A model generated the notes under the pieces. It made no database searches. It saw nothing but the letters and a program-made list of their open reading frames with translations, and was not told the DNA's origin. From the NCBI RefSeq assembly GCF_910592395.1, contig NC_088324.1, forward strand, positions 5,794,953 through 5,858,952: a DNA stretch of 64,000 nucleotides, in the 5' to 3' direction. Source of the stretch: Lineus longissimus. Lineage: Eukaryota > Nemertea > Pilidiophora > Heteronemertea > Lineidae. The first letter of the stretch is position 1; each line of letters starts with the position of its first letter. The position numbers and the translations under genes were made by a program. Positions 3,926 to 63,052 of the stretch are shown here, piece by piece.

Positions 3926-3928
3926 AGG

Positions 3929-19604: not shown

Positions 19605-19670
19605 TGCACCGATGTTGTCCGCTACATTTGCACCATATTCTGTTCTTTTTTTTTCACTATTTCGATAGAC

Positions 19671-21317: not shown

Positions 21318-21865
21318 GATGGATAAACGCTACTACAAGTTTGTGAATTCCAGATATTTTGGTGAGGTGCTTTCTGTGAGAGGACCAGTGCACCACGATA
21401 GCCGTGGCCTAGTGGTACAAACGAACGAAATAGAAACGTTGACTACAGCGAGTTCCTATTCTATATCGATACTATCACGCCCGATGCAGACTTATAAGGC
21501 CTTTCATAGGCATATTTTCAGTTACCGAATAAAAAAGAAATCTGTATCCATTGGTCTCTGTGACCAATACTTTACGCTAATGATTGAGATAAAGGTGAGA
21601 GGACGCTGCATTGCCTTCATGGGTGGAGAAGTACTAACTGGACAAACTTGGCAACTGATGACTGTAAGTTACGACGCCAATAAAAATAAAGTTGTCTTCT
21701 ATATAAACTCTGAGGCTTATGTTGGACGGATGACTCGTGTCGCTTGCAGTCCACTCAGAACCTATTATATCACTATCGGCCGCAACTATGGTGGAGAAAT
21801 CGCATGGGCAATGCTATTTCCATATGTATTGAAACAACCTGATGTAACTCTCATTTCGAACAACA
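21318..21865 (+). CDS. Laminin-G/pentraxin-like exon, unit 1
   Basis: The 548-bp exon has acceptor gttttttttag and donor A/GTAAGT. It starts in phase 2 and ends in phase 1, 182 codons. The fold is a concanavalin-A-like sandwich of Laminin_G_3 type: GEVLTGQTWQLMTVSYD is the W...VSYD strand pair, NKVVFYINSEAYVG the next strand, and ITIGRNYGGEIAWAMLFPYVL the typical G-x-I...Y-x-L end. Such domains bind sugars, lipids or proteins outside cells. Residues 138-150 read TRVACSPLRTYY, as in unit 3. The exon reads in frame from exon B. Confidence 0.82.
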
Positions 21866-22157
21866 GTAAGTCAATCATGTGCACTTCTAAATGATAGTCT
21901 GGAAAGGCTAAACATGTAAATTACTTGTAGCTAGATATAGCCAGGGGCCATGTTTTCACTTGATGTCAAGTCTATAAAAAGAATTACGGTTATCGTACGT
22001 TATGGTTACAGATAGTTTGACCTCTGTAACCTTGAATATTAGGTCAATTTGAAAATGTTTCGTGAACGATTTTAGGCTTGTCTACGGTGGCTGGGAAAGA
22101 ACATCGAAATAATTTTGTTTCTGTGCGGGACGACTTATTGTATCGGGGGACGACTTC

Positions 22158-22979
22158 GCGAATATTTTTTCACATCTAAAAAATCCGCCATCTTGGATTG
22201 GTTATAAGCATGGAGGAATCTACATGCGACGTCATTAGTCGATTTTGTTCTATTTTAAGCCATTCACTCTACGTGCGTTTGTTGACATTAACTTAGATGC
22301 TTCTCTTGGCAACTTGCATTTAATTTTACTGTAGTATCATGGTAACTGCAGCAAAACAAAGGCTTGGCACCAGTAGAAAAGCATTCATTCCTACTCTTTT
22401 TAGAGGATAGGAGAGGGTTTAGTAAATTTTCCCTGAAATGTTAAGATGAAAAAGACAAAGGCAAATTGAAGAGTTTGCTTCAATTTTGGAGCTCCTTTTT
22501 AGTCTTTCAGGGAATTTAGGCTGCAATTTCCTCATTCACTTCTACTTTCACATTCACAAATTTTAACTCACAAATCCCTTATAAATGAATAACCCAAGGC
22601 AGTTAATTGCTAAAAACAACACTTTATTAATCTTGATGATGCTTTTGCTAAACATCATTTAATATAATCTTCATACAAAAAGTTTATGATGCTTAAACAT
22701 GTATGGTAAACATAACCACTACACAACACTTTATTAAAGGGATAGTATTATGGCCGGAAAAGGGCGTATTTAGTGCCTTTGTACATGCAAGGTTTTTGAG
22801 GATCTCAAATACCGGCAGAATCATGAAAGTGTACGCATAAATACGCCATAAATGCATACACACGCCGTGGATGCAATTCCGAGGGTATTCCTAATGAAAT
22901 GACGTCATCTGGAGATTCCCTTCCAACCTTATTACCAATCCAAGTTGGCGGATTTTTTAGATGTGAAAAAAATATTAGC
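22158..22979. mobile_element. MULE-like MITE, unit 1
   Basis: 822 bp with ~46-bp inverted ends that begin GCGAATATTTTTTCACATCT. The flanking 9-bp repeats are GACGACTTC (22149-22157) and GACAACTTC (22980-22988). Nine-base duplications fit Mutator-like transposons. Unit 3 has the same insertion; unit 4 has the uninterrupted site near 52487. There is no transposase. Confidence 0.83.
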
Positions 22980-22988
22980 GACAACTTC

Positions 22989-24837
22989 ATAGAGAGTTTT
23001 CGCTATCCCGTACCGCCGAGAAATTCGACGAGAAAGAACCCATTTCTGCGTATGACGTCATCAGTTTTCGTGAAAAAATTTCCGATCTCGAGCTGGTCTC
23101 CATGAACCAAGCGAAGTATCTCGTTCACTATTTCGGGATCGGGAACTCGGGAAATGGCGGACTACTCAATCAAAATGCAAGGTTTTCTGTGATGTTACGC
23201 TCACGTGCCTATGGCGAGCGGTTACGGTCACAATTAATATATACTGTTCAACAATAAATATGTAGCGTTCAACCATAACTCTTTTTTGATTTGTGCACAA
23301 CAGAAATCTTTTCCTGCTGGTCGACCTGTTAGAGCACCAGCTGAACATCACATGGTCGATAAGTGGGCCCGGTCTATTATCAAGTTGCGTTGATGACAAC
23401 GAGGACCCTTCTGTTCGGTTCGCCAACAAAGAATTATATTTGAGCACAATATTTATTGTTGGGACTTACTGAACTTTACGGAACGGTTTTGGAGTAATCA
23501 CCATACATGTCAGGTGTCAGCATGACTTCGATCGACCGCTGATCATAATTCTGTATGCTCACCGCACACTGAGAGATTGTGGTTAAAATGCAGTTATTGC
23601 TGGCATACTGCCCGCTGTGGTTATATGTGGACACTGTTAGGACCGTCTGCTATGTTCATGGTGTAACCATAGCGGGAAGTCACACGGGTGCACAGAGGTT
23701 ACCATAGCGGACTGTCAGCCGTATGTTTTTTTTGCATTTTAAGTCACTTTATAAAACACTTTGAGCCAAGCACTTGTAATAACATCTTCCTATTCTCGTG
23801 TACATGCTACACAATACCGTTCAATAATCTCCAAAACTTATGCAACTATGTTAGAAATGAGCACAAGTGCCATTACTTGGCTCGGAGCTACAAAAACACT
23901 GATTTATCTACTTATTAAGGACAGCTTCATCAATAAGATGTGTGATACCAACCAGCAAATCCACGTCGAGTGCCACAGAACAGGAAACATTCGCACTTTA
24001 ATATGCCTGAAGCGGCTAGCAGATGACAGAATCAATTGAAAGTGTGCTTTATCCCGTCGTCTGCTAGCACCTTCAGTAGCTATAGCGGACAGTGATTTGT
24101 TGGCACTGTCCGAATCCCCACACTCAAGATTGGTGACACACATACTTGGCTGTCCAGTGTTTTATTGCGTCACTCTTTCCTTCTCCCAGTTAAAGATTCT
24201 ATGGGTATGTATACAATGCCACCGTTATCCTTTTCTTTCCCAACCGTTAGGGGGCATGCTGTGCATTCCAACACAACAGTATTCCGCCATAAGGCTGAAA
24301 TATGATGAAATACTATATATATAATAACAGTTAATTTTCGCACGAGACTGACCTCGGTTGGTCAAGGTCTGTCTTCACAGAGGCACTTGAAGATATCAAG
24401 AAGCCGCTCATAGGAGCTTTTGTTGAGCTTGCCGTGTAGGGCATAAACTGGTTCCCGGTATGTTTCGAATCTATGACCTCGGATGAGCCGTTTGTACCAG
24501 AACGCTCCAAGTCCATCGTGGTATAGGCAGATGTGCATTATGATGCAGTCTGATTTCAGGGTGGCATCATCCTGTTTCCGGCAACAATCAGGTTTCCTTC
24601 TCTGTTGGCAAACTTAGGCCAGGTTGGCATCAACAATATTGTAGCGACAGGTTTGTGCAGCAACCAAACACCTACTCGGCAAACACTTGTCAGTTTTAGG
24701 GCATTTGTTTCACGAAGGGCACGTATTATAGGCCGTTTGAACAGATGCCTTTCAACTGGCTCATAGCGTCTACATGTACAACGTATTACATTATAATGAA
24801 TTAAGCAAATTATGTCGTTTCATGCATTTCATACAAG
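22989..24837 (+). other. Unit 1 stretch between MITE and PAN-like frame
   Basis: A short frame ending at 23471 (LNITWSISG, VRFANKELYLSTIFIVGTY) is shared with units 3 and 4 and recalls a PKD/REJ-type beta-sandwich strand pattern. CCGCTATGGTTA-type inverted repeats lie at 23610-23725. Otherwise no gene is recognised on the plus strand. Confidence 0.4.
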
Positions 24838-25061
24838 AAAACATTACCTCAGCAAGTAACGAGACGAACTTTGTACGCAGTGACCAAGATGCAATTTCAC
24901 AGTCTACGCTCTGTTTTGAAAACACTTCGCTTATAAAGTGTGCAGCAGTATTCCTTATTGTTTGCCCTGACAACACGGGGATATATGCCGGTTTTATATT
25001 TGATCAGACACGCACTCACTGCCCATGTTTAATCTATATTTATCTGATGGCAGAAATATAG
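24838..25061 (+). CDS. PAN/apple-like exon candidate, unit 1
   Basis: The frame follows acceptor catacaag in phase 1, the phase in which the LamG exon ends. It encodes SLIKCAAVFLIVC then AGFIFDQTRTHCPCLIY, which recalls the Cys spacing of PAN/apple modules. It ends at a stop (25059-25061) conserved in units 1-4, just before a strong GTAAGT site, so it could be a terminal exon or a dead one. The opposite strand is also largely open here. Confidence 0.38.
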
Positions 25062-25676
25062 GTCCATGCGTACTGTAAGTTTTCAAAATCCTGGGCTAAT
25101 TCACACCTTGCGAATTCATTCTAAATTTCGAGCAGCATGGAGTCCTGGTGCCCGCCATTATCAAGTTTACTCCAATGGAAGGGTCTAGAGAAGTATTTAC
25201 ACGGGATATTATATATAGATGAACGCTCAGCAATGAATGAACACTCGGTCAGTGATCTGCTTACGATCATTCCAGGTTGATTAGAAGAAAGCGGATGAAA
25301 CCCAAAGAAATCAATGAGTCAATCTTTTGGGGCTAAATGTAGCGTAACATAATCTTCTGAGATGTTATTTTTTTATTAGTTGCAAAAAAGTGGTGGTTTT
25401 TGGAATTTATAATGTAACAAGGGTTGAGCGAGATCGTGTCGAATGAGATCGCAATCTACATATAAGAGTACCGGACTGGGGAGTACCCCCTCCTGCGCAT
25501 GCTCAGTCGTTCATGACATCTCCAATACGTCATTGACGAACAATTTAGGTGCTTACGAAATCATTTCAGGAATCGCTAAAATAAGTAAAATCGGATGCTT
25601 ACGTTACCGGACCACTTTTGGCACCTATGCATCAAGGCGAATCAGGCGAATCCTAAATCGCGACCAAAAGGCTTAA

Positions 25677-27080
25677 AGGTCATATATCAAGGTTTTTTGC
25701 CATTTTCTGCTGTAAGACGATTTCAAAAGTGTACCTAACACTTTATACAATACAGCAAACCAAATGCAATTAGCTCCATCCATTTTGAAGATATAGCCAA
25801 TTATGTGTTTGACAACTTGATTACCTAATCAGGCTAGCAACTGGCTTGTTAGAGCCAGGCGGCGGGTTCAGCAAAAGTTGTGATGTAGATCAGGTTATCT
25901 GTACATGTCATGCAATCATAAAAGCAGGAGGGCCTTAATTAATTATGCACACCTGGAAGTAATGTGTTTCATTCACTATGGTGTATTGTGTGGCTCCGAA
26001 TTGTGTCAAGGATAGCACAAAGAACAATCGAATGACGGATGGGACCCATTTTCATGAATTTCCAAAGCCAGTTGAACGAGAGAGGAGGAAGCTGTGGATT
26101 CGGAAGTGCAAACGTTTGGAGTGTTGGAAGCCTGGGCCTTCGGCCAAACTTTGCAGTGATCACTTTATCGATACGGATTATCACATGAAGCCGGATATCT
26201 GCATCCAACTGAATATCAAATGCCACTTGTTAAAAACAGCTGTTCCAACCATGTCAATTGCATTTAATGCCCGAGGCTGCTGAGGTCGGTTGTTATACAT
26301 AATGTGTAGGCCCTATTGGGGCCTGTGATACCGCATAGTGTCTTCTTGTGTTCCAGCCATAGCAAGGTGACAGCGACACAGGTCAGTGTCAGTGACAGCC
26401 ACTGTCACCACTGTCAATGACAGATTATTGTCATCTGACATCTAGGCCTATCTAACGTTGCACGGCATTATATCGTCACGTCAAGATGATTGTGCATAAT
26501 ACCGTCACTTTTCAATAGTAGTTCAGCGTCATGACATAACTGGCGATACAACACTGACGAGGCGAAACAATATTGTGCAACATTAGTCTGTTCAAAAATC
26601 ATACATGTTATGCATCTGCAACCGTCTATCAATGTCTTCTTTGCTATATCGGCAGGTCTGCCATGCAAATTGATTAACCACAAATTCTAATCACTTTCGT
26701 CCGAATGATCACTCTCATTATGATCTAGTGATATTAATGGCTCGAACATGTAGGCCTACGGCACAACGTTTAAATATCCTTCTGTATCGACCAAAACATC
26801 CTCAAATTCACTGCTCTCACTCTCTGAACTGTATGCGGAAGCCATCTTGCTTTGTTCTGACTGACCTGATCTACGTCATCAAAAAATCCCTAGCGGCCAC
26901 ATGTGGAACTAATCTAAAGTTGTGTGTGGTGGGAAATTCAAATAGTTTAAAATTGAAAATTGAAATAACTAAATAATGACTTTATTATTAGAATTTTTTT
27001 AATGTCTGGGATCTTGTTTTTTTAACCCTCAACATATTTCATGAGTATCAAGCATGTTTTCAAACCTTGATATATGGCCT
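25677..27080. mobile_element. Kolobok-like DNA transposon with THAP ORF
   Basis: A 1404-bp insertion present only in unit 1. Target TTAA is duplicated (25673-25676, 27081-27084). Units 2, 3 and 4 have the empty site with a single TTAA. The ends are 19-bp inverted repeats, AGGTCATATATCAAGGTTT and AGGCCATATATCAAGGTTT. TTAA targets plus a THAP-domain gene are known from the Kolobok superfamily. No transposase core is present, so this is a non-autonomous copy. Confidence 0.88.
25978..26283 (+). CDS. THAP-domain protein of the Kolobok-like element
   Basis: 101 residues form a THAP zinc-dependent DNA-binding domain. The C2CH zinc ligands are C4, C9, C59 and H62. W40 and P29 sit at the usual places, and AVPTMSIAF (88-96) is the AVPTIF-type closing motif. 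The length, about 90 residues plus a short tail, is that of the domain alone. It probably binds the transposon ends. The ATG at 25978 gives the standard start a few residues before the first Cys. Confidence 0.88.
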   Translation: MVYCVAPNCVKDSTKNNRMTDGTHFHEFPKPVERERRKLWIRKCKRLECWKPGPSAKLCSDHFIDTDYHMKPDICIQLNIKCHLLKTAVPTMSIAFNARGC

Positions 27081-27217
27081 TTAAACTAGTGCAACAGCTA
27101 GCTGTATACGTGTGGGGAAAAAAAAATTTTCAATCGTCTTATACGACAGACTCTCTCTCTTAAAGTATAATTGAAACATTTCTAGTTGATACTAAGTATT
27201 CTCTTTGAACCGAAAAG

Positions 27218-27373
27218 CAAAACATTACACATCATTACTTAAAAGGACAATTGGTATCAGTAAGGGCAATATTACCCAGTTGGCAGAAATATCACGCTTT
27301 TCCTATGTTGACTCCGATTTGACCCGAGTTAGCTCTCCATGCGTCGACGCTGTCATTGTGGAACAATGCACTA
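27218..27373 (+). CDS. Exon C candidate, unit 1
   Basis: A 156-bp segment bounded by an AG (ccgaaaag) and a donor A/GTAAGG, phase 1 to phase 1. It encodes HYTSLLKRTIGISKGNITQL and SSPCVDAVIVEQCT (two Cys). The frame is open at identical length in units 1-4, and several inter-unit differences are silent. No family is recognised. The acceptor has a weak pyrimidine tract. Confidence 0.42.
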
Positions 27374-30220
27374 GTAAGGTGCTCCCGGACGGTCCAATGG
27401 CGAATTTTCTATAGATCTACACCCGTTGAAACTCTCACATAGTCCATCATCTGCTACAGTTTGATCATCCACGCACCGATCCGGTGTGTATAGTGCGCTG
27501 CTTGTAACATGGATTGATGAATACCTCTCTTGTTCTGTTTCGATAATAATCATTTTAAGGATGTCGTGATAGCTTTTCTACGACACTGTGAAGTGTATTT
27601 GTGCAAAACAGATGCGTAATAAAGATATAAATTTCAACAATGAATGGCGCAGTCACGGACGCTCAGTGTTGCTGTGATCCGTGACCAGATGACAGCACGA
27701 CTGATCACTCACGAAGAGGCGCAACCCTTCGCTTTATGAAGGTTTCTCGCATGAATCTATTTTCTCAGCCATGTGACCTATTTCGGCGTCGTAATGAAAA
27801 ACCTCTTTTTGTTTTGTTGTTAGTTTTATAGATGGATCGTATTCTGGCAAAATTGGACAAAAAAGCCGCTTCGCGCTAAAACGTTCCCTCGTCCTCAATT
27901 TTGAAAAAGTAGAATGCGCAATGATATTGTGCGTATGAGTGTCCAACCTTAGATACGTCCCATTATGACCATTGTTGGCCGTCGATTGTTCCCATTGTAG
28001 AAAGGTGCCTGGGAAACCAACTGCGGTAGAGTTAATAAATCAAGTGAGACTTGGTAACGATCAATACCATTGACGACTCTAGGAGAATGACTCCGACGAT
28101 AATGGAAATAATCGCCGTTGCGTCGTAATAACGGGGTGACGTAAACTGGGATCTTGGGGTGCACTCACCTGTTGAAAAATAAATGTCGTTCACGCCAGGA
28201 CTTTTGCGTACTACAAATTACGAAAAACGCGCCAATTTGGTTTCTACTATCTAAGAGTTGAAACAAAATTGGAAAAGCATCAAACACGTTTAGAAAAATA
28301 GCTTACTGATGAAGCAGAGAAAGAACAAACATACTGCATTAAAAAGGCGTCCATTCCATTTATTGGAAGTAGAGCTGCTTCTATCACACATGCATATGGG
28401 CTACGGCAACACCTCTTCTAGCTATTTTTAATGCTTACCGTAACTTCTTCAGCTATTTCGTCCCTCCCTCCCATTATTCAAGCTGCAAATGCAAGAGTCA
28501 CCGTGAATTGCAAGAGGCCCAACATTCACGAATCGATCCGAAGATATTTGAAGCTGTGGAAATATACTAATTGCTTCAACTGAATGTCCAGATGTCTAAA
28601 GCGCCTATTCTCCTTCAAACGCCCATGATTTTCCTTCGATCCTGTCAATAGCGCAAATACTTATTTCAAGCAGATTCGTTGCTCTTCCTACTATTCACAT
28701 TCGCGAACATAAGACAAATATCCTGCTATTTACAATTCTAACCACCACATCCTGAAAATAGAAAATCAGGCACATCAAGCATGTCAGAGGGAGTAAAATA
28801 ACTGCCCACTCAAGTCCACTCGGCAGTGGCTGTATTTCTTTGCTTAGTTTTTATTGGTCTTCACCTCAAAATCAAACAGGATCTTTCCATTTTGGTAACT
28901 ATGATAACTTTTTGCATGTATTTGTATACATTGACGTACATATTGTAGTATATGAGCATTGAATTCGAATAATTTCCGCTCTGTACGGTTTATTTCGCGA
29001 CTGATCAGGATGAAATGTTCAGGTTATTATTTGTTTGTGTCCTTCTCTATTCATGATCATGTGCCATGAATGAACTAGAAATATCCAAAAACAAAGTATA
29101 TAATGGTCTATACAGGGAACCAAACAAATGACTTAATTGGTCTTCGCTGACTAATTTGTTTAATTTTTAAAAGGAGAATGTTGAATCCATAAACTCCTGT
29201 TTGGTTAAGAGGCAAGGATCGATAAAAACCAACCTAAAAGAAACCCGACCAATAGTTGTTTGGTCCTCACCTCATTAACCACATTCAACAAAGACCTTTG
29301 ATCTTTAATGTTCAATTTTGAGAAGCCCTATTTTTTTAACGAGTTTTCTCGAAATCCGACCTTTCAGGGAAAGGTCGGACTTTTGTCGGATAAGTCAGGA
29401 AAAAGTTACAGAAACTGTAAAAAAGTCGGAAAATGTATCGTACTTGTTAGTAAGCTTTCGTAAATCCTCTGAAAACACCTGCTAAACATTAAAGAGCATG
29501 TCGTTCTACGCCTTTGTAGTAGGACTCGTAGCGTGACATTGGTGCCGTCACTTTATAGCGGTAAGGTGCATACAAGGTAACCATTCCTGGTGTTTTTTGT
29601 AAAAAGCTAAAAGTACAATTATATCTTCCATGACAGGCAACATCTCATATAAGAAGAATGCTTTGGGTGTACTCAATAGCACGCAGATCTACATACCACT
29701 TTGTGATATAATCGTAATTTGTTAAGTGGTCTCGCTGACCGACTTCCTAAAGCAGCCTTCTCTCAAATACACTCAGGGATGGCATGCTGGATTGGAAGAA
29801 AATAATGATTTTCTGCATTGGTCATGTACATTATTGATGTTAACTTCATCATTGTTGGTTGGATTTTCATTGCCTTACATGTACAAGTTTATTGCATTAA
29901 AAATCATATTGTAAAATACATTTATTGATAGAAATTTGGTATTTATTTGTTGGCAAATGATGAATTGGTTAGGAAGACAACACCAATCGATCTTATTTCT
30001 ATCACATGGCCCAAGGCATTCTTGAAATGGCGGTGTAACGCGGACTATTGATTCTCGCTGAGACTGAGGAAATTATTATTGTGACCAAAACTTTCAGATA
30101 GATGATGGATGATTTTCAAGGCTAGCCGCCACCTACAGTGTTCTCTTAGCGATGGACATGGACTTCGCTGGATCAGTATTTTGACACTTAAACTTCTGTT
30201 TGTACTTGTTCTTCTTCGAG
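27374..30220 (+). other. Unit 1 spacer up to the next exon A
   Basis: No gene is recognised. It includes short minus-strand frames shared among units without known domain. The half-palindrome block with AAGTCGGACTTT lies at 29270-29450. Confidence 0.4.
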
Positions 30221-30343
30221 GGCTCCAATCAGAAATATTCAGACGATTCCTCTGTCTTATCATTTGCTCGTTGTTGTTGGTTTTTCTCGATCGCGAGAGC
30301 AACGTCTACGAAGACTGCGGTCAGCGAGTTGCTGGCAAAAAAA
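30221..30343 (+). pseudogene. Decayed exon A, unit 2
   Basis: It aligns with exon B. The donor aaaag/GTAGG has become an A-run followed by TAGG, and the frame is broken midway. Confidence 0.65.
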
Positions 30344-30915
30344 TAGGCTCAGAGCGATGATACGGCTGGGATGAAACGTGATTGTGTGCAAAACTCTCAT
30401 TGATGGATGTTTTTCAAGTACGGATACATGTCACCATATTGTATCGTTAGAAGGCTAGCTGCAGTCTTCAGAGTTTTCATAGCGATGAACATGGATGACT
30501 CTGGATCAGTATTTTGATAATGATCCAGGATTATTCCACTCTCCACTCATTCAACAGCATTTGACCTCTTGTCTCGAAAAAAGTGGCAACAGTCTTATTA
30601 CTCTCGCAGACCTATTACCATATCGTCAAAAGAGATTTATTCCCACAACATAAAGTAGTCGTGAGACCAATTCTGTGGCAAAATGACACAAAACGGTAAG
30701 GACACGTGCTAATGCCAACCTGGGTTCCCATCGAAACAGGTGTAATTGACTTGTGGCTGATCGATAGCCTATTGATTGGAGTGAGTAAGGAATCAATGCG
30801 CAACTGTGATCCCGTTGCGTAACTGTAGTGTGTGTGGGCGGAGAGAATATCTTTCCAACTCCAATATAATTAATGCAGATTGGTGTCTCCTGTTGGGGCT
30901 TGCTCTTCATTATAG

Positions 30916-31040
30916 TCGATAGAGGGCCCACATCACAAACATGCAGGTGATTCACCTGTCCTACCCTTTGTTCATGACTGTTGGTTTTCTCAGGAGTGAG
31001 ACGACGAGGAAGACTGCGGTCAGCGAGCTGCTGGCAAAAG
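30916..31040 (+). pseudogene. Exon B, unit 2 (frameshift and stop)
   Basis: One extra base in gggcccacatcac shifts the frame; use of an AG seven bases on (start 30923) would restore it. However, the Cys codon in the ECDDEED motif has become TGA. This copy therefore cannot encode a full exon B, although splice sites remain. Confidence 0.75.
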
Positions 31041-31903
31041 GTAGGCTCAGATATATGGCTATGGGTATCCCGTTATTCTTTTGATTGTTAGTCAGTTATG
31101 ATACATATATTTGATGATGTAAAATTAATTGTTCTTCAGAGCTCTTCTTTGTCCCCGTGAAGCTGGCCGTGGCTGTGAAAGTAAAATTCTTGAGGCCAGA
31201 TCATCCTTCTGAGGGTCGCCAGCCTTGAACATCTGCCTAGAAATGGGTCGTAGTCATATGGTCGTTGTGAAGAGGTTTTATTGCTTTCTCAGGCTTTTTA
31301 AAGTCCAGATCGAGTCATTTGGGTGAAAATATATGGCTGTTGTGGGGTTGTGAAGAGTTTTCAGACTTTTCAATTCTAGCATCTTCGCTGGGTAAATTTT
31401 TCAAAATCGGTATCTAGTTACACGAAGGATATAATGTTTTCAAGTTGCCTTTGTCAGGAATGTACCTAACTACATGTAGTTCCACACTCCGTTGGCAATC
31501 GCAGTATTTCCTCCATCGACGCTGTCATTTCTTATAGCAACTCACAAATGGTTCTTCAACAGTAGTGTAGGGATCTTAAGGTAAGGTGTATCTTAAACTG
31601 AGGTTATTATCGCATATTATGGCAAAAGGTGAGAGACTGCATATAAAAACTATGGACCGATTCCGGTACGGTTTCTTTTGCTCATGACGAGAACCTTCGT
31701 CACACGACCGTTTGATTTCTTCATAAATATCCTTCACTTTGTTAATGGAAAGGAAATTGTCTCTTGACTTCATGCATGTAGAGTAATTTGCTTTTTAAAG
31801 TTCATTCGTTTTTCATTACTATCAAGCAATGTAACCAACATCTTACAGAGACAATAAATATCATATTTATATCATTTCATAATGTACCGTCTTGTTTTTT
31901 TAG

Positions 31904-32451
31904 GATGGATAAACGCTACTGCAAGTTTGTGAATTCCAGATATTTTGGTGAGGTTATTTCTGTGAGAGAAGCAGTGCACCACGACAGCCGTGGCCTAGTG
32001 GTACAAACGAACGAAATAGAAGCGTTGACTACAGCGAGTTCCTTTTCTATATCAACACTCTCACGCCCAATGCCGAGTTATACGGCCTACCATAGGTGCA
32101 TTTTCAGTTACCGAATAAAAAAGAAATATATATCCATTGGTTTCCGTGACAACGAGTTTACGCTAATGCTCCAGATAAAGGTGAGAGGACGCTCCAATGT
32201 CTTCATAGGTGGAGAAGTACTAACTGGACAAACTTGGCAACTGATGACTGTTAGTTACGACGCCAATAAAAATAAAGTTCTCTTCAATATAAACTCTAAG
32301 GCTTATGTTGGACGGATGATTCGTGACTTTTGCGGTCCACAAACAATTCATTATATCAATGTCGGCATCAACTATGGTGGAGAAATCGCATGGGCAATGC
32401 TATTCCCATATGTGTTGAAACAACCTGATGTAACTCTCCTTTCTAAACACG
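31904..32451 (+). CDS. Laminin-G-like exon, unit 2
   Basis: 548 bp, open, acceptor tttttttag, donor G/GTAAGT, phase 2 to 1. The core (102-121) is identical to that of unit 1. Distinctive residues are REAV near position 22, FRDNEF near 81, and DFCGPQTIHYIN near 141. Several otherwise constant sites change (V126 to L, Y128 to N). The upstream exon B of this unit is broken, so its use in a transcript is uncertain. Confidence 0.8.
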
Positions 32452-43430: not shown

Positions 43431-43439
43431 GACAACTTC

Positions 43440-52194: not shown

Positions 52195-54253
52195 GTAAGT
52201 CAATCATGTGCACTTCGAAATGATAGTCTGGAAAGGCTAAACATGTAAGATGTAAGCCTGGAGCAACGTTCTCACTTGCTGTCAAGTCTATAAAAGGAAT
52301 TACGGTTAGCGTACGTTAAGGTTACAGATAGTTTGACCTCTACGACCTTGGAAATTAGGTCAATTTGAAAATGTTTTGAGATCGTTTTTAAACTTGTCTA
52401 CGGTGGCTAGGAAAGGACATCGAAATATTGTTGTTTCTGCGCGGGGCGACTTATTAAGTCGGGGGGCGACATAACACCTCGGGGACGACTCCATAAAGAG
52501 TTTTTGCTATCCCGTACCGCAGAGAAATCAGCCGAGAAAGAACCCATTTCTGCATATGACGTCATCAGTTTTCGTGAAAAAATTTCCGATCTCGAGCCGG
52601 TCTCCATGAACCCAGCGCAGTATCTCGTTCACTATTTCGGGATCGGAAACTCGGGAAATGGCGGACTACTCAAACAAAATACAAGGTCTTCTCTGATGTT
52701 ACGCTCGCGTTCCTATGGCGAGCAGTTACGGTCACACTTAATTACATATACTATTCAACAATACATATGTAGCGTTCAACAACAATTCTTTTTTGATTTG
52801 TGCACAACACAAATCATTTCCCGGCTGTTCGACCAATTAGAGCACCAGCTGAACATCACGTGGTCGATAAGTGGGCGCGGTCTATTATCAAGTTGCGTTG
52901 ATGACAACGAGGACCCTTCTGTTCGGTTCGCCAACAAAGAATTATATTTGAGCACAATATTTATTGTTGGGACTTACTGAACTTTACGGAACGGTTTTGG
53001 AGTAATCACCATACATGTCAGGTGTCAGCATGACTTCGATCGACCGCTGATCATAATTCCGTATGCTCACCGCACACTGAGAGATTGTGGTTAAAATGCA
53101 GTTATTGCTGGCATACTGCCCGCTGTGGTTATATATGGACACTGTTAGGGCCGTCTGCTATGTTCATGGTGTAACCATAGCGGGCAGTCACACGGGTGCA
53201 CAGAGGTAACCATAGCGGACTGTCAGCCGTATATTTTTTGCATTTTAAGTCACTTTATAAAACACTTTGAGCCAAGCACTTGTAATAACATCTTCCTATT
53301 CTCGTGTACATGCTACACAATACCGTTCAATAATCTCCACAACTTATGCAACTATGTTAGAAATGAGCACAAATTGTGTCATTACTTTGGCTTAGAGCTA
53401 CAAAAACACTGATTTATCTACTTATTCAGGACAGCTTCATCAATAAGATGTGTGATACCAACCAGCAAATCCACGTCGAGTGCCACAGAACAGGAAACAT
53501 TTGCAGTTGAATCTGCCTGAAGCGGCTTGCAGATGACAGAATCAATTGAAAGTGTGCTTTATCCCGTCGTCTGCTAGCAGCGTCGGTAGCCGTAGCGGAC
53601 AGTGATTTGTTGACACTGTCCGAATCCCCACACTGAAGATTGGGGACACACATAATTGGCTGTCCAATGTTTTATTGCGTCACTCTTTCCTTCTTCCAGT
53701 TAAAGATTATATGGGTATGTATACAATGCCATCGTTATCCTTTTCTTTCCCAACCGTTAGGGGGCATGCTGTGCATTCCAACAGAACAGAATTCCGCCAT
53801 AAGGCTGAAATATGATGAAATACTATATATATAACGACAGTTAATTTTCGCACGAGACTGACCTCGGTTGCTCATGAAGGGCTGTCTCCACAGAGGCATT
53901 TGAAGATATCAAGAAGCCGCTCATAGGAGTTTCTGTTGAGCTTGCCGTGCTGGGCATAAACTGGTTCCCGGTATGTCTCGAATCTATGACCTCGGATTAG
54001 ACGTTTGTACCACAACGCTCCAAGTCCATCGTGGTATAGGCAGATGTGCATTATGATACAGTCTGATTTCAGGGTGGCATCATCCTGTTACCGGCAACGA
54101 TCAGGTTTCCTTCTCTGTTGGCAAACTTAGGCCAGGTTGGCATCAACAATATTGTAAAATGACTCAGCGACAGGTTTGTGCAGCAACCAAGCACCTACTC
54201 GGCAAACACTTGTCTTTTTTGGGGCATCTGTTTCACGAAGGGCACGTATTATA
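52195..54253 (+). other. Unit 4 stretch after the LamG exon
   Basis: The MULE-like MITE of units 1 and 3 is absent; the single target GACGACTCC is seen near 52487. Downstream the CCGCTATGGTTA-type inverted repeats recur near 53105-53225. From 53640 on the sequence matches the antisense-frame region of the other units. Confidence 0.5.
52504..52980 (+). CDS. Open frame of 158 codons, unit 4
   Basis: The frame is open only in unit 4; units 1 and 3 have a stop (CAA TAA) midway. The last 47 codons (LNITWSISGRGLLSSC, VRFANKELYLSTIFIVGTY) are open in all three and look like a beta-sandwich edge of PKD/REJ type. No clear donor follows the stop. Function unknown; it may be chance or a decayed exon. 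Confidence 0.27.
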   Translation: MLSRTAEKSAEKEPISAYDVISFREKISDLEPVSMNPAQYLVHYFGIGNSGNGGLLKQNTRSSLMLRSRSYGEQLRSHLITYTIQQYICSVQQQFFFDLCTTQIISRLFDQLEHQLNITWSISGRGLLSSCVDDNEDPSVRFANKELYLSTIFIVGTY

Positions 54254-55342
54254 AGCCCCCCTTTAGGAGGGGCTCTTAAGATACACGTGTGTGCGGGAGT
54301 AGATAATGTAAATGAATGATGAGAAATAAAGAGAGTAACTATTGATTGTATATCCTACAAACAATTTTTTTTGGTATTTTTCTGAATTAACTCCGTTGAG
54401 TTTACCGATTTCTCCGCGATCTTCCGGTGGTGGTTGCTATCCCATTGCTTGAAATTAATTTAAATTAATTTAAATCTTCATGGGAATTCGCTACATCATA
54501 TGCCTAAGAAATTGGCCAATTATATTAATATTTTTATCAGAGAAATATCCGTCCTAAATAATGACAGAAAAGGGTGGTTTATTTCAATTTTGTGTCGACA
54601 TGATCGAGGTCACGTGACATAAAAACAAAACAATCGCACACACCCGTCCAAAAAAGGCACTTTAAGAAAAACAAATACGTTTTTCCAGCTTAAAACCACA
54701 CTGACGACTAAGTTATATTGGTCTACTGCCCAAATCTGAAGTATCAAATTGAATCACAAACTAGAACTAGCTCTATTTAGCTATAGTTGCGTGAAAAATT
54801 CGGGTGAGCGACGTACATTCTGTACCCTAGCGGCCAATGATTAAACTACTTTCAGCCGTCTGCTCCGGTCTCGTTAGGGAGTTTTTCCCAAATGTACGCG
54901 ATGATGACGTGCCCCATTAACAGGACGTAACATCTATTTTAAAATGCGTTTCGAAAGTGAATGAATGAGGACAACCCATTTGTGTCGTATATCACTGGAA
55001 ACGCCCGATTCCCGTGAATAAGGTCAATCACAATGTATTACATTACCAAAACAAAAATGTGTCGGAAGGAACTATATGGATGGTCCCATCGCACCCCCCC
55101 CCCCCCCCCCTCCAGCAGTATGACACAGAAGGGCTAGTTGACTGTCCACCGGGGGGGTTTGGGGGGAGCTTCCCCCCAACGCACTGGTAAAAACCTATGT
55201 CGACGGAGAGGGGTTTGGGAGGTGTCCCCCAATTGTAACAGCTGTAGTTGTTAGAGCTTGCACTTAACATATGCTCGTAGGGGGGTTCGGGGGAGCTCCC
55301 CCGACCTAAAGGGGGGCTCACTAAGTTCTTGACTTTACATAT
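54254..55342. mobile_element. Private insertion with G-rich hairpins, unit 4
   Basis: About 1090 bp interrupt the GTATTATA/GGCCG site that is intact in units 1-3. A TA duplication fits the borders. The left end AGCCCCCCTTTA is inverted near the right end (TAAAGGGGGGCT). Three degenerate modules with GGGGGTTTGGGGG and CCCCC arms lie at 55150-55315, and a long C run near 55090. The right end TTTACATATTA matches the unit 3 insertion. No coding capacity is seen. Confidence 0.72.
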
Positions 55343-55450
55343 TAGGCCGTTTGAACAGATGCCTTTCAACTGGCTCATAGCGTCTACATGTACAACGTAT
55401 TACATTATAATGAAATAAGCAAATATGTCGTTTCATGCATTTCATACAAG

Positions 55451-55674
55451 AAAACATTACCTCAACAAGTAACGAGACGAACTTTGTACGCAGTGACCAA
55501 GATGCAATTTCACAGTCTACGCTCTGTTTTGAAAACACTTCACTTATAAAGTGTGCAGCAGTATTTCTAATTGTTTGCCATGACAACACGGGGATATATG
55601 CCGGTTTTATATTTGATCAGAGACGCACTCACTGCCCATGTTTAATCTATATTTATCTGATGGCAGAAATATAG
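55451..55674 (+). CDS. PAN/apple-like exon candidate, unit 4
   Basis: Open frame as in units 1 and 3, ending at the same stop. The 1.09-kb insertion lies about 100 bases upstream of its acceptor. The minus strand is also open here. Confidence 0.38.
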
Positions 55675-56417
55675 GTCCATGCGTACTGTAAGTTTTCAAA
55701 ATCCTGAGCTAATTCACACCTTGCGAATTCATTTTAAATTTCGAGCAGCATGGAGTCCTGGTGCCCGCCATTATCAAGTTTACTCCATTGGAAGGGTCTA
55801 GAGAAGTGTTTACGCGGAATGTTGGATGAACGCTCAGCAATGAATGAACACTCGATCAGTGATCTGCTTACGATCATTCCAGGTGGATTAGAAGAAAAGG
55901 GATGAAACCAAAAGAAATCAATAAGTCAATCTTTTGGGGCTAAATGTAGCGTAACATATTCTTCTGAGATGTTATTTGTTTACATGTATTTGTTGTAAAA
56001 GAGTGGTGGTTTCTGGAATTTATAATGTAACAAGGGTTGAGCGAGATCGTGTCAAATGAGATCAAAATCTACATGTACCCCCTCCTGCGCATGCTTAGTC
56101 GTTCATGACATCTCCAATACGTCATTGACGAACAATTTAGGTGCTTACGAAATCATTTCAGGAATCGCTAAAATAAGTAAAATCGGATGCTTACGAAATC
56201 GGACCACTTTTGGCACCTATGCATAAAGGCGGCTGTATGTGACCAAGGCCCATTGATCTGACGAATCCTAAATCGCGACCACAAGCCTTAAACTAGTGCA
56301 ACAGCTGTATACGTGTGAGGAAAAAAAAGTTTAATCGTCTTATACGACAGAATCTCTCTCTTAAAGTATGATTGAAACATTTCTAGTTGATACTAAGTAT
56401 TCTCTTTGAACCAAAAG

Positions 56418-56573
56418 CAAAACATAACACATCATTACTTAAAAGGACCATTGGTATCAGTAAGGGCAATATTACCCAGCTGGCTGAAATATCACGCTTT
56501 TCCTATGTTGACTCCGATTTGACCCGAGTTAGCTCTCCATGCGTCGACGCTGTCCTTGTGGAACAATGCACTA
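56418..56573 (+). CDS. Exon C candidate, unit 4
   Basis: 156 bp, phase 1 to 1, donor A/GTAAGG as in unit 1. It encodes HNTSLLKRTIGISKGNITQL and VDAVLVEQCT. Confidence 0.42.
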
Positions 56574-58447
56574 GTAAGGTGCTTCCTGGACGGTCCAATG
56601 GCGAATTTCCTATACAACCGTTGAAAATCTCACATAGTCCCTCATCTGCTAGAGTTTGATCATCTACGCACCGATCCGGTGTGTATATTGCGCCGCTTGT
56701 ATCGATTGATGAATAGCCTTCTTCTTATGTTTCGAGAAAAAAAAATTTTAAGGATGTCTCGATAGGTATTTTTATAACACTGTGAAGTGTATTTGTGCAA
56801 AACAGGTGCGTAATAAAGATATGCATTTTAACAATGAATGGCGCAGTCACGGAAGCTCAGTGTTGCTGTGATCCATGACCAGATGACAGCACGACTGATC
56901 AGTCACGAAGAGGCACCACCCTTCGCGTTATGCAGGTTTCTCGCATGAATCAATTTTCTCAGCCATGTGACCTTCTTTGGCGTCGTAATGAAAAACCTCT
57001 TTTTGTTTTGTTGTTAGTTTTTTACATTGTTCGTATTCTGGCAAAATTTAACCAAAAAAAGCCGCTTCTCGCTAAACCTCTCCCTCGTCCTCCATTTTGA
57101 AAAAGTAGAACGCGCAATGATATTGTGCGTATGCGTGTCCAACCTTAGATACGTCCCATTATGACCATTGTTGGCCGTCGATTTTTCCCATTGTTGAAAG
57201 GTGCCTGTGAAACCAACTGCGGCAGTCAGTAAATCAAGTGAGACTTGGCAACGATAATTACCATTGACGACGCTTGGAGAATGACTCCGACGATAATGGA
57301 AATGATGGCCGTTGCGTCGTAATATCGGTGTGATGTAAACTCGGATCTCGGGGTGCACTCACTTGTTGAAAAAAATGTCGTTCACGACAGGACTTGTGCG
57401 TACTACTACAAATAACGAAAAACGCGCCAATTTGGTTTCTACTATCTAAGAGTTGAAACAAAATTGGAAAATCATCAAACACGTTTTGAAAAATAGTTTA
57501 CTGAGGAAGCAGAGAAAGAACAAACATACTGCATTAAAAAGGCGTCCATTCCAGTTATTAGAAGTAGAGCTGCGTCTATCACACATGCGTATGGGTTACG
57601 GCAACACCTCTTCTAGCTATTTTTAATGCTTACCCTAACTTCTTCAGTTATTTCGTCCCTCCCGCCCCATTATTCAAGCTGCAAATGCAAGAGTCACCGT
57701 GAATTGCAAGAAGCTCAACATTCACGAATCGATCCGAAGAAATTTGAAGCTGTGAAAATATACCAATTGCTTCGACTGAATGTCCAGATGTCTAAAGCGC
57801 CTGTTCGCCTTCAAACGCCCATGATTTCCTTTCGATCATGTCAATAGCGCAAATACTTATTTCAAGCAGTTTCGTTTCCCTTCCAACTGTCCACATTCGC
57901 GAACATAAGACAAATATCTGCCTATTTACAATTCTAACCACCACATCTTGAAACTAGAAAATCATGCACATCAGGCATGTCAGGGTGAGTAAAATAATTG
58001 CCTACTCAAGTCCACTCGGCAATGTTATGTCCGTATCGTTTGGGGCTCTGGAAAGGCTAGTACTGGTTGTACATGTATTACTTTGCTTGTTTTTATTGGT
58101 CTTCACCTCAAAACCAAACAGGATCTTTCTATTTTGGTAACTATGGCAACTTTTGTATGTATTTGTATACATTGACGTACATATTATATTGTAGTATATG
58201 TGCATTGAATTCGAATATTTTCCGCTCTGTACGGTTTATTTCGTGACTAATCAGGATGATCGGGTTATGTTTGTTAGTGTCCTTCTATTCATGACCATGT
58301 GCCATGGATGAACTAGAAATATCCAAAAACCAAATATCCAAGTATATAATGGTCTATACAGGTAACCATCCAAATGACCATTGGTCTTCGCTGAAAAATT
58401 TGTTTAATTTCTGAACTGAGAATGCTGAATCCATAAACTCCTGTTTG
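56574..58447 (+). other. Unit 4 spacer
   Basis: No gene is recognised; sequence shared with the spacers of units 1-3. Confidence 0.4.
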
Positions 58448-59369
58448 TGTAATGGTCATTTTACATTTTCAGTTTAAATTTCCCACACTTCAGCACTTTG
58501 TAAGGGACATGGAACCCTAAACTGGTTCCCTGTCCCATCTCTGGATTCCAGGTCACTTTTGTCCTTGTTTTTGGTTGGGAAGACCCCTTTCTGCCTTCTA
58601 TTCTGTTTTTAGTTCAACATTTCAAGTCCTTTTCTAGATTTATCTTTCTTACTATGTCTTTATTTCTGTGAGGAGCAGTCATTTTTAGCCCTCTAACGCT
58701 TGGTAAGTTTGCACAATATGAATAAAAGCTATTTAGGCCATTTGAATTATATTTTGTACTGTATTTAGTTTGGTTAGGAAGGATTTATTCAGTGCCTCTC
58801 CTGCCTGTTGTCCTCACCAGCATTTTCAGTTGTGCGTAGGCCCACACCATGTTGTATTATGTAATATTGCTTTAAAGGTCAACTGGGGTGAGCCCTGAAG
58901 GGCTGTCCTTCTTTGTTATTTAAATTGTGTCTCCCTGATCTAATAGTTTAGTCAGGTGATGTTTTTGTTTACATGTGGTGGGGAATTTGTGTCCTGTATG
59001 ATACTGTAAAACCGGCCAGGGGACGTTGTGTCCTTATCTTGTCTCTGGTCTCAAACTTCATTTAAATTTGGATTTTCTGATTTATGTTCACGAGATTTTC
59101 TCCGGCTTGTGCATAACCTTCTCTGGTACCCTTTATATCTTTTACACCTTTTATATCTAAACAAGAAAGTGTTTACTATATAATTGTCTCTGGTCTCTGG
59201 TCCCCTTTCTGATTGTCCTGTGATTTAGATCTTGTTATCATCTTGTGATTTGCATTCTTTGTCAATTATTTGTACTTGTGTTTATTTGTGCTTTTCCTTA
59301 TTTACAGTAAATCTGCTGCTGCTGCTGCCGAATCTACGACTTAGAGTTTTTTCTCTGACCGCTCCCACA
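58448..59369 (+). mobile_element. Solo LTR, 922 bp, probably Ty3-like
   Basis: The insertion starts TGTAATGG and ends CCCACA, with a 5-bp flanking repeat (GTTTG at 58443-58447, GTTCG at 59370-59374, one mismatch). The other units have the uninterrupted site. AATAAA at 58721-58726 fits a plus-strand LTR. It contains no coding region. Assignment to Ty3/gypsy rests on the TGTAATG start and length. Confidence 0.75.
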
Positions 59370-59445
59370 GTTCGGTCATGAGGAAGGATCGATAACAAAA
59401 AAAACTTAAAGTAAAAACCCGACCAATAGTTCGCCCTCCAGAATC

Positions 59446-59910
59446 CCAATGCAGACATAACATTTAAAAATAACTTTAAAGAAGGCTTTTTCCGAGTCCT
59501 AAACGGTTCCTCAATTTTTTTGCCCGATTTATCCGACAGAAATCCGACATTGTTCGACTTTTCCCTAAAAGGTTGGATTTCCAAAAAATCGGTGACTTCC
59601 CAAAATAGAGCATTGAAAGGCATCAAAGTCCTATGTTGAATGGGGTTAATGAGATGTGAACCAACGACTCAGAGTGACCCTGAATGTGAATACTAACTAG
59701 GACACTCTGACTGTTTGGCCCACACCTCATTAACCCCATTCAACATAGACCTTTGATCTTTAATGGTCAATTTTGGGAAACCCTATTATTTTAACGAGTT
59801 TTCTCGAAATTCGACCTTTCAGGGAAAAGTCGGACTTTTGTCGGATAAGTCAAGAAAAAGTTACAGAAACTGTAAAAAAGTCGGAAAATGTATCCTACTT
59901 GTAAGTAAGT
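59446..59910. repeat. Imperfect palindrome, unit 4/5 boundary
   Basis: The left arm (about 59446-59670) and right arm (about 59725-59910) are diverged inverted copies, as at 38870-39330. The arms meet around an ~80-bp centre containing CTCAGAGTGACCCTGAATGTG. Confidence 0.65.
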
Positions 59911-60659
59911 TTTCGTAAATCTCCTGAACATGCCTGCTAAACATTAAAGAGCATGTCGTTCTACGCCTTTGTGGTAGGACTCGTAGTGTGACATTGGTGC
60001 CGTCACTTTATAGCGGTAAGGTGCATACAAGGTAACAATTCCTTGTGTTTTTTTATAAAAAGCTTTAAGTACAATTACATCTTCCATGACAGGCAACATC
60101 TCATATAAGAAAGAATGCTCTATAGCACGCAGATCTACATACCGCTATGTCATATAATCGTATTTTATTAAGTGGTCTCGCTGACCGACTTCCTAAAGCA
60201 GTGTTCTCTACAATACACTCAGGGATGGCATGCTGGACTGGAAGAAAATAACGATTTTCTGCATTGGTCATGGATGTAATCTTTATCATTATTGGTTGGA
60301 TTTTTATTGTCTTCCATGTACAAGTTTATTGCATTAAAAATCATATTGTAAAATACATTTATTGATAGAAAACAATTTGGTATTTATTTGTTGGCAAATG
60401 ATGAATTGGTTAGGAAGACAAAACCGATCGATCTTATTTCTATCAAATGGCCCCAGCCATTCTTGAAATGGCGGTGTAACGCGGACTATTGATTCTCGCT
60501 GAGACTGAGGAAATCATTATTTTGACCAAAACTTTCATATAGATGATGGATGATTTTCAAGACTAGCCGCCACCTACAGTGTTCTCTTAGCGATGGACAT
60601 GGACTTCGCTGGATCAGTATTTTGACACTGACTTCTGTTTGTACTCGTTCTTCTTCGAG

Positions 60660-60781
60660 GGCTCCAATCAGAAATATTCAGACGATTCCTCTGTCTTATC
60701 ATTTGCTCGTTGTTGTTGGTTTTTCTCGATCGCGAGAGCAAAATCTACGAAGACTGCGGTCAGCCAGCTGTTGGCAAAAAA
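60660..60781 (+). pseudogene. Decayed exon A, unit 5
   Basis: Alignable to exon B; donor lost (aaaaaatagg) and frame broken. Confidence 0.63.
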
Positions 60782-61327
60782 TAGGTTCAGAGCGATGATG
60801 CGGCTTGGATGAAACATGATTGTGTTCAAAACTCTCATTGATGGATGTATTTCAAGTACGGGTACATGTTACTATATATTGTATCGTTAGAAGGCTAGCT
60901 GCAGTCTTCAGTGTTTTCATAGCGATGAACATGGATGACTCTGGATCAGTATTTTGATAATGATCCAGGATTAATCCTCTCTCCACTTGACTTCTTGTCT
61001 CGAAAAATGTGGCAACAGTTTTAATACTCTCGCAGACCTATTACCATATCGTCGAAAGAGATTTATTCCCACAACATAAAGTAGTCGTGAGACCACTTCT
61101 GTGGTAAGATGACACAACACGGTAAGGATACGTGCTAATGCCAACCTGGGTTCCCATCGAAACAGGTGTAATTGACTTGTGGCTGATCGATAGCCTATTG
61201 ATTGGATTGAGTAAGGAATCAATGCGCAACTGTGATCCCGTTGCGTAATTGAAGTGTTTGTGGGAGGAGAGAATATCTTTCCAACTTCAGATTGATGTCT
61301 TCTGTCGGAGCTTGATCTTCCTTATAG

Positions 61328-61451
61328 GCGATAGAGGGCCAAATCACAAACATGCAGGTTATTCATCTGTCGTATCCTTTGTTCATAACTGTTGGTTTTC
61401 TCAGGAGTGTGACGACGAGGAAGACTGCGGTCAGCGAGCTGCTGGCAAAAG
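61328..61451 (+). CDS. Exon B, unit 5 (intact)
   Basis: 124 bp, acceptor ccttatag, donor aaaag/GTAGGC, phase 1 to 2 as in unit 1. It encodes NCWFSQECDDEEDCGQRAAGK. The frame is open and joins the LamG exon in phase, so this unit has a complete two-exon cassette. Confidence 0.65.
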
Positions 61452-62292
61452 GTAGGCTCAGATTTATGGCTCTGGGTATCCCGTTATTCTTTTGATTGCT
61501 AGTCAGTAGCAATACATATATTTGATGATGTAAAGTTAATTGTTCTTCAGAGCTCTTCTTTTTCTCCGTGAAGCGTGCCATGGCCGTAAAAGTAACATTC
61601 TTGAGGCCAGATCATCCTTCTGAGGGTTGCCAACCTTGAACATCTGCCTAGAAATGGGTCGCAGTCATATGGTCGTAGTGAAGTGGTTTTATTGCTTTCT
61701 CAGGCTTTTTAAAGTTCAGATCGAGTCATTTGGGTGAAAATATATGGCTGTTGTGGTGTTGTGAAGAGTTTTCAGACTTTTCTAGCATCTTGGCTGGGTA
61801 AATTTTTCAAAATCGGTATCTAGTTACACGAGGGATATAATGTTTTCAAGTTGCCTTTGTCAGGAATGTACCTAACTATATGTAGTTCCACACTCCGTTG
61901 GCAATCGCAGTATTTCCTCCATCGCCGCTGTCATTTCTTATAGCAACTCACAAATGGTTCTTCAACAGTAGTGTAGGGATCTTAAGGTAAGGTGTATCTA
62001 AAACGGGTTGTTATCGCATATTATGGCAAAAGGTGAGAGACTGCATATAAAAACTATGGACCGATTCCGGAACGGTTTCTTTTGCTCATGACGAGAACCT
62101 TCGTCACACGACCGTTTGATTTCTTCATAAATGTCCTTCACTTTGTTAATGGAAAGGGAATTGTCACTTGACTTTATGCATGTAAACTAATTTGCCTTTT
62201 AAAGTTCATTCGTTTTTTGTTACTATCAACCAATGTAACCAACATCTTACAGAGACAATAAATATCATATTTATATTATATCATAATGTACC
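61452..62292 (+). other. Intron between exon B and LamG exon, unit 5
   Basis: Matches the corresponding intron in the other units, with no coding segment seen. Its end is altered by the solo LTR at 62293. Confidence 0.5.
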
Positions 62293-62485
62293 TGTCGGGG
62301 ATGCCCAGGTTCTAAGGGAATAACGACCACCCAGTTCTATGTAAAACTTCAACTGATTTATTACTAGACTCGAGTCAGAATGAACATGTGATATAGTTAC
62401 ATAATTCAGAAATACATGTTTCTAAAAGACATTCAATAACTCCAATAGACCAGCTATTGGCGGCGACTATAATCTGTTCCCAACA
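62293..62485 (-). mobile_element. Solo LTR, 193 bp, Copia-like
   Basis: The insertion has TG...CA ends (minus strand TGTTGGGAACAG) and a perfect 5-bp target duplication GTACC (62288-62292, 62486-62490). The empty site GTACCGTCT is seen in units 2, 3 (as a variant) and 4. A minus-strand AATAAA lies at 62357-62362. It ends only 19 bases upstream of the LamG exon. Confidence 0.85.
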
Positions 62486-62504
62486 GTACCGTCTGGTTTT
62501 TTAG

Positions 62505-63052
62505 GATGGATAAACGCTACTGCAAGTTTGTGAATTCCAGATATTTTGGTGAGGTGCTTTCTGTGAGAGGACCAGTGCACCACGATAGCCGTGGCCTAGT
62601 GATACAAACGAACGAAATAGAAGCGTTGACTACAGCGAGTTCCTTTTCTATATCAATACTATCACGCCCGATGCAGACTTATAAGGCCTTTCATAGGCGC
62701 ATTTTCAGGTACCGAATAAAAAAGAAATATATATCCATTGGTTTCCCTGACAAAGACTTTACGCTAATGCTCCAGATAAAGGTGAGAGGACGCTGCACTA
62801 TCTTCATGGGTGGAGAAGTACTAACTGGACAAACTTGGCAACTGATGACTGTTAGTTACGACGCCAATAGAAATAAAGTTGTCTTCTATATAAACTCTAA
62901 GGCTTATGTTGGACGGATGATTCGTGACTTTTGCGGTCCACAAACAATTCATTATATCAATATCGGCCCCAACTATGGTGGAGAAATCGCATGGGCAATG
63001 CTATTCCCATATGTGTTGAAACAACCTGATGTAACTCTCCTTTCTAAACACG
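62505..63052 (+). CDS. Laminin-G-like exon, unit 5
   Basis: 548 bp, open, phase 2 to 1, donor G/GTAAGT. Residues 75-92 equal those of unit 4 (FPDKDFTLMLQI), while DFCGPQTIHYIN and the end (LLSKHGKSIMSTF) equal those of unit 2. This patchwork suggests exchange among copies. The solo LTR leaves the pyrimidine tract GTCTGGTTTTTTAG untouched but moves the upstream branch-point region away. Confidence 0.82.

Follow-up and report, generated by a model that had tools for sequence, protein, structure and literature searches.

Tandem LamG-like genes of the nemertean Lineus longissimus and the diversification of a wider gene family

To our knowledge, few domain families carry fast-diversifying repertoires in invertebrates. 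Among the closest described systems, the sea urchin Sp185/333 (SpTransformer) genes are characterised in the accounts available as clustered, similar and rapidly diversified. The F-lectin repeats of oyster sperm bindin are described as being under positive selection at eight clustered sites, and recombination in an intron as giving rise to many domain sequences (PMC5712786). Here we report on a tandem array of genes with a laminin-G-like (LamG-like) exon in the nemertean Lineus longissimus, which lies in a stretch of 64,000 nucleotides (the window; NCBI RefSeq assembly GCF_910592395.1, contig NC_088324.1, positions 5,794,953 to 5,858,952, forward strand). A first-pass annotation, made from the letters of this stretch, had noted five copies of the exon and read their divergence as clustered, replacement-biased and fitting diversifying selection on exposed loops of a binding domain.

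The finding is real and larger than first described, as the exons belong to a multigene family, not only to a set of five, and would encode small, probably secreted proteins. The first-pass annotation had overlooked the other exons of each unit and the mosaic make-up of the copies. Each LamG-like exon forms the third exon of a modelled four-exon gene, preceded by an exon with the ATG and a signal-like segment and by a 43-nt exon, and followed by a terminal exon. For the whole family there is good support for diversifying selection, and for the window copies alone the support is modest. We consider it probable that the array consists of tandem genes for a small signal-like LamG/concanavalin-A-like protein, whose family has been driven to change at recurring sites.

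Family members and selected sites

A protein search of the animal's own genome (391 Mb, 30 contigs) gave at least 28 exon matches on four contigs, 22 of them intact. Ten lie on the window's contig (C17), with splice sites common to all ten, and 18 on contigs C9, C10 and C11 at 29-40% identity. Thirteen of these 18 are full-length and open and constitute subfamily 2, from which the partial or broken L041-L045 were left out. On the window's contig, the array comprises six genes, five in the window and a sixth past its end, where the genome was read on. A sister cluster of four genes (d1-d4) with the same splice sites lies about 2.6 Mb away. The LamG-like exon of d1 (C17:3128127-3128674; L007, L027) has one in-frame stop, and d1 was left out of all site models; d2-d4 differ in their C-terminal tails, exon 4 ending otherwise, and their whole proteins have 280, 251 and 251 amino acids. 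The genes thus form a tandem multigene family with intact members, as would be looked for in a diversifying recognition family.

Selection is most evident in the 13 relatives of subfamily 2. Over their whole exon, model M0 gives a ratio of replacement to silent divergence per site (dN/dS, omega) of 1.44, and the comparison of M1a with M2a a likelihood-ratio statistic (LRT) of 97.7. A rate-controlled test, in which omega above 1 is assessed with the fast codon class given its own rate and its own omega, yields p=1e-5, and a uniform omega of 1 with rate classes is rejected (p=0.0024). The signal is kept without L039 (p=2e-6), and the six C11 members alone give p=2e-4 with ill-determined fitted values. 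Codon models were fitted here and below with our own code, not PAML, with a small parameter penalty and naive empirical Bayes posteriors, on alignments from which gap columns were removed (182 and 187 columns kept); p values are uncorrected across the several model comparisons. In the C9/C10 trio, dN stands above the divergence of the flanks in all three pairs: 0.077 vs 0.020 in L028/L036 (Fisher p=6e-8), 0.076 vs 0.014 in L028/L038 (3e-10) and 0.037 vs 0.012 in L036/L038 (5e-4).

Six of 12 selected sites are common to the window family and the relatives, where 2.0 are expected (p=0.006, at thresholds of our own choosing, 0.9 for the window set and 0.8 for the relatives). These are sites 27, 65, 84, 141, 142 and 155 in the numbering of the window copies. 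Residue diversity is likewise correlated between the subfamilies over 177 sites (rho 0.29, p=9e-5). Part of this overlap could reflect loops that merely tolerate change. At specific sites the replacement rate exceeds the neutral one, clearly in subfamily 2 and modestly in the window.

The five window copies of the exon are 548 bp each and share one open frame with AG and GT borders, as had been annotated. The frame is kept, with no indels vs 7.2 expected (P=7e-4) and no stops vs 4.1 expected (P=0.01). Residues 102-121 are identical in the five proteins, codons 106 and 116 differing silently. The reported clustering holds in that variable codons are unevenly spread, as judged by the variance of their counts over 12-codon windows (p=0.013), by the number of windows without any (p=0.023) and by the longest invariant run (p=0.017), but the highest count in any 12 codons does not depart significantly from chance (p=0.52). 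Codon 65 has five residues in five copies, and codons 22, 81, 83 and 84 have four each. Triplets with at least three changes make up 11 of 182 exon codons vs about 6 of 414 noncoding triplets of the same units (Fisher p=0.003), their frequency being put at 5.5% in the exon and 1.4% in noncoding DNA. The variance-to-mean ratio of changes is 1.37 in the exon vs 1.05 in pooled noncoding DNA, with intron 2 alone intermediate (1.20).

By Nei-Gojobori counting, the 19 replacement and 2 silent differences first read between copies 4 and 5 come close (19.5 and 3.5), and the 23 and 9 read between copies 1 and 3 were too low (31 and 12). For the five copies as a whole, replacement bias is not supported: they require 87.5 replacement changes on 425.5 sites and 22.5 silent ones on 120.5, which matches the neutral prediction (3.5:1 expected, p=0.65). 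Site models nevertheless single out a fraction of codons: M1a/M2a gives an LRT of 28.6 (p=6e-7), with about 11% of codons at an omega of about 8, and remains significant with six copies (p=3e-8) and nine copies (p=2e-6). The rate-controlled test gives, from lnL (log-likelihood) values, p=0.028 on one tree and 0.011 on four trees, whose cuts at 58, 85 and 138 were set after the splits were seen; p is 0.023 with six copies and 0.013 with nine. The single-tree value was reached in 17 of 400 simulations. The suggestion of diversifying selection had the right direction and is strongly borne out in the 13 relatives, but the five window copies do not prove it.

Several observations weigh against this reading. 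Mean dN (0.092) and mean dS (0.091) over the ten pairs of window copies are nearly the same, and in these copies taken alone the introns have diverged to about the same extent. Pairwise divergence is 0.045-0.090 in intron 2 and 0.005-0.181 in the first 217 bp of intron 3, with dN at 0.047-0.119. Since the divergence of the flanking introns overlaps dN, some pairs show as much change in introns as at replacement sites, or more, an outcome that the first-pass annotation took to speak against selection; in copies 4 and 5, dN is 0.047 and the introns stand at 0.062 and 0.181. In simulations on a smaller scale, the rate-controlled value was reached once in 21 runs. Among the 12 of 78 subfamily-2 pairs that were compared with their flanks, selected as close pairs and not independent, dN is below the flanks in four and significantly above them (Fisher p<0.05) in five. 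Omega is 0.52-0.99 in pairs of the sister cluster and 0.63-0.83 between copy 5 and that cluster. As to the protein, the Laminin_G_3 (PF13385) scores seen all fall below the gathering cut-off of 27.6 bits (16.9-26.2 in the five window copies, 24.8 in full-length copy 1), and no relatives were found in the protein database with the profile or the full protein (E up to 10) or in a further search at E 1e-3, nor by sequence in PDB. The choice of exon 4 was made from 16 candidates, and in d2-d4 the frame of this exon stops at another point; hydropathy is the basis of the predicted signal peptide.

Mosaic copies and rival explanations

The copies have a mosaic structure. Informative sites group copies 3-5 and 2-4 upstream, 1-3 in the exon, and 1-3 and 2-5 downstream. 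Over the whole aligned stretch, adjacent informative sites agree in their split to a degree that none of 5000 shuffles attains; the exon, taken by itself, shows no significant agreement of this kind (p=0.14). Segment 59-85 favours a different tree by 6.8 lnL, and a retroelement-like insertion in intron 3 is common to copies 2 and 5. We interpret these patterns as showing that segments of the copies have different histories, to be attributed to conversion or unequal crossing-over. In the third cluster (about 138-150), old block divergence contributes, because the neighbouring intron is equally divergent.

It is unlikely, though deserving of some weight, that the window copies have evolved without positive selection, the exon being approximately neutral with purifying selection on its frame only and the hot codons being mutational or multi-nucleotide clusters. 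A single omega of 1.27 with 12% of codons evolving nine times faster fits as well as the mixture of omegas (lnL -1321.62 vs -1321.41), and a uniform omega of 1 with rate classes is not rejected with six copies (p=0.31) or nine (p=0.92). Third positions take 8 of the 37 changes in codons with at least three changes (p=0.09), and the similarity of dN, dS and introns points the same way. However, noncoding DNA of the same units is less clumped than the exon, the rate-controlled test still favours omega above 1 (p 0.01-0.04), and subfamily 2 both rejects the uniform omega of 1 and passes the controlled test. The mosaic structure raises another explanation, which we hold to be rather improbable: variability may have been imported by conversion from unsampled divergent paralogs, so that site models misread blocks as selection. 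The clear mosaic of splits, the tree preference of segment 59-85 and the position of the third cluster in a block with a divergent intron would all agree with it. Yet the M1a/M2a statistic stays at 21.5 (p=2e-5) when four partition trees are used, and none of 21 recombination-aware null simulations reaches the observed value (maximum 8.3). Moreover, several copies have residues of their own at the hot codons, not blocks held in common with other copies, and import merely shifts the question to the donors.

That the copies are decaying duplicates under relaxed constraint appears very improbable. An overall omega of about 1.2 in the window set and the in-frame stop of d1 would be expected of decay; the absence of indels and stops from the five exons, the six full-length genes and the constraint on exon 1 speak against it. 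We give hardly any credence to a single gene with mutually exclusive LamG exons, as in Dscam. Although the phases of all exon-3 copies are identical, each of the units comes with an ATG exon and an exon 2 of its own, and a terminal exon with a stop is present in units 1-4 within the window and in units 5 and 6 beyond it. The array reads as separate genes, not alternative exons.

The reading we prefer is thus that of tandem genes in a family driven to change. The predicted protein would begin with a hydrophobic, signal-like segment, continue with a single LamG/concanavalin-A-like domain encoded by the 548-bp exon and end in a short tail. The tandem units of about 10 kb contain segments that differ in history between copies, through conversion or unequal crossing-over, and they preserve the frame and a rigid scaffold. 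The family, most clearly in the relatives on other contigs, has been pushed to amino-acid change at the six shared sites and their neighbours. The protein may be secreted, and its changing residues may sit in loops contacting a ligand that varies; the array might then act as a repertoire for extracellular recognition of microbe, gamete or self. By analogy with oyster bindin, a recognition role is the most likely reading. More tentatively, the family may represent an undescribed lineage-restricted recognition system of at least 28 exons in several clusters, with a binding surface diversified by conversion and positive selection and used in individual, gamete or microbe recognition.

Gene model and neighbouring elements

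The gene model (Table 1) was obtained by scanning splice sites and open frames for conservation, and the exon phases fit. All six array genes as modelled encode 268 amino acids, genes 5 and 6 being completed beyond the window. For genes 1-4 this is no independent proof of exon 4, because the scan was filtered on equal length; exon 4 has the strongest acceptor among the phase-fitting candidates in unit 1 and is conserved in units 1-4. A counterpart of exon 2 lies upstream of 12 of the 13 subfamily-2 loci, with AG/GT borders in all 12, and its recurrence there lends independent support to exons 2 and 3. Variants of exon 2 of 101 nt (ruled out by phase) and 76 nt (ruled out by its acceptor, by eye) were rejected, a choice borne out by the subfamily-2 exon, which has 43 nt.

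Exon 1 is under purifying selection, with a dN/dS of 0.21 over five copies (Fisher p=0.018 against exon 3). The hydrophobic character of its beginning points to a signal peptide. In subfamily 2, exon-1-like matches are at chance level: same-strand upstream matches occur at 5 of 13 loci (E 0.4-0.8), and six matches on the opposite strand, downstream, reach E 0.29-0.77. Changes in the other small exons are few, with five replacement and no silent in exon 2 and five and one in exon 4.

Table 1. Features of the LamG-like gene array, in window positions
Feature	Position	Strand	Basis or remark
Tandem array of ~10-kb units	19668..64000	+	self-BLAST
Array unit bounds	19668-30217, 30218-40100, 40101-50022, 50023-60656, 60657-onward	+	self-BLAST
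Gene 1 exon 1, ATG, signal-like, 100 nt	20364..20463	+	ATG and donor conserved in five units
Gene 1 exon 2, 43 nt	20953..20995	+	AG/GT, phases fit exons 1 and 3
Gene 1 exon 3, LamG-like, 548 nt	21318..21865	+	
Gene 1 exon 4, terminal, stop; least certain exon	24190..24305	+	best acceptor score
Gene 2 exon 1	30941..31040	+	
Gene 2 exon 2	31538..31580	+	
Gene 2 exon 3, LamG-like	31904..32451	+	
Gene 2 exon 4, stop	35154..35269	+	past insertion of long-terminal-repeat (LTR) type in intron 3
Gene 3 exon 1	40811..40910	+	
Gene 3 exon 2	41403..41445	+	
Gene 3 exon 3, LamG-like	41768..42315	+	
Gene 3 exon 4, stop	44623..44738	+	
Gene 4 exon 1	50733..50832	+	
Gene 4 exon 2	51286..51328	+	
Gene 4 exon 3, LamG-like	51647..52194	+	
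Gene 4 exon 4, stop	53700..53815	+	
Gene 5 exon 1	61352..61451	+	
Gene 5 exon 2	61944..61986	+	
Gene 5 exon 3, LamG-like	62505..63052	+	exon 4 just past window end, read from genome
Second exon-1-like sequences	19687-19777, 30246-30340, 40129-40223, 50051-50145, 60685-60779		

In the self-BLAST of the window, blocks of different units are about 81-96% identical. Exon-1-like remnants about 10.4-11.1 kb past the window end (74450-75119 in extended coordinates) mark a possible seventh unit; exons 2-4 have no match beside them within the stretch read. A second exon-1-like sequence, 72-77% identical, lies about 680 bp upstream of each exon 1. Its ATG is kept in unit 1 and is ATT in units 2-5, and it could be an old duplicated first exon. 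Open frames at 45306-45500 and 47016-47160 (+), with counterparts in other units, have low dN/dS across units, and the former is frameshifted in unit 2. Both were considered as exons of the genes and rejected, neither fitting by phase; they may belong to something else.

The window contains further elements. In intron 3 of gene 2, direct repeats 98% identical to each other (32673-33227 and 34387-34941) surround the insertion and are likely its LTRs, and a related stretch occurs in unit 5 (63274-64000). An open frame with a THAP domain (E 2e-13) lies in unit 1 (25963-26283, +) and has no matching block in other units among self-BLAST rows longer than 150 bp. Upstream of the array, BEL/Pao-type retroelement fragments occupy 1086-3928 (-), with Peptidase_A17, DUF5641 and a weak integrase match. 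BEL/Pao elements are a type known from animals, and together with the introns they fit an animal genome. Two further reverse-transcriptase fragments are found at 8482-9132 and 16103-16615 (-), the second sub-threshold. The 14-17 kb block is presumably DIRS-like, to judge from its appearance.

Domain identity and comparison with described systems

With E limited to 0.1, Laminin_G_3 is matched by 8 of 18 members, the best being window copy 1 (E 9.9e-6), and the only other Pfam match among the 18 is a weak one to Hexapep. The matched stretch is 95 residues long in copy 2 and 126-135 residues long in the other four window copies. Both structure models are of poor quality (mean predicted local distance difference test, pLDDT, 44.3 for an all-beta model and 29.3 for a second), and CRP, PTX3, neurexin and perlecan are among the low-scoring fold matches. 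The label LamG-like is reasonable, short of proven membership, and the putative binding domain of the first-pass annotation rests on these sub-threshold Laminin_G_3 matches. Rfam gave nothing at gathering scores, and among titles and abstract openings of the open literature we found none dealing with this array or with a recognition family of tandem LamG-like type.

Five near-identical copies could not settle the question of selection, and the wider genome could, its two subfamilies serving as natural replicates. Small tandem LamG-like genes with selection replicated at homologous positions would offer a candidate recognition system that is compact and open to test.

Clustering, similarity and rapid diversification are shared with Sp185/333, which, as far as its description goes, is a different protein. 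We know of no LamG-like domain in Sp185/333. Similarity to the laminin-G domains of the pentraxin/LNS type (PF13385) lies in the weak profile match and the low-scoring folds, with the difference that the match lies below the curated cut-off where scores were seen and that the structure models are poor. The shell-matrix proteins Pif and BMSP are, in the sections consulted, animal matrix proteins with a laminin-G-like region (PMC7747718, PMC11291548); they differ in carrying VWA and chitin-binding domains, to which the 268-amino-acid protein has no Pfam match. Oyster bindin, as portrayed in the available part of PMC5712786, is similar in its lectin-type repeats, clustered positively selected sites and recombination, but has an F-type lectin fold and a single gene with 1-5 repeats, whereas the LamG-like domains of Lineus longissimus are distributed over separate tandem genes.

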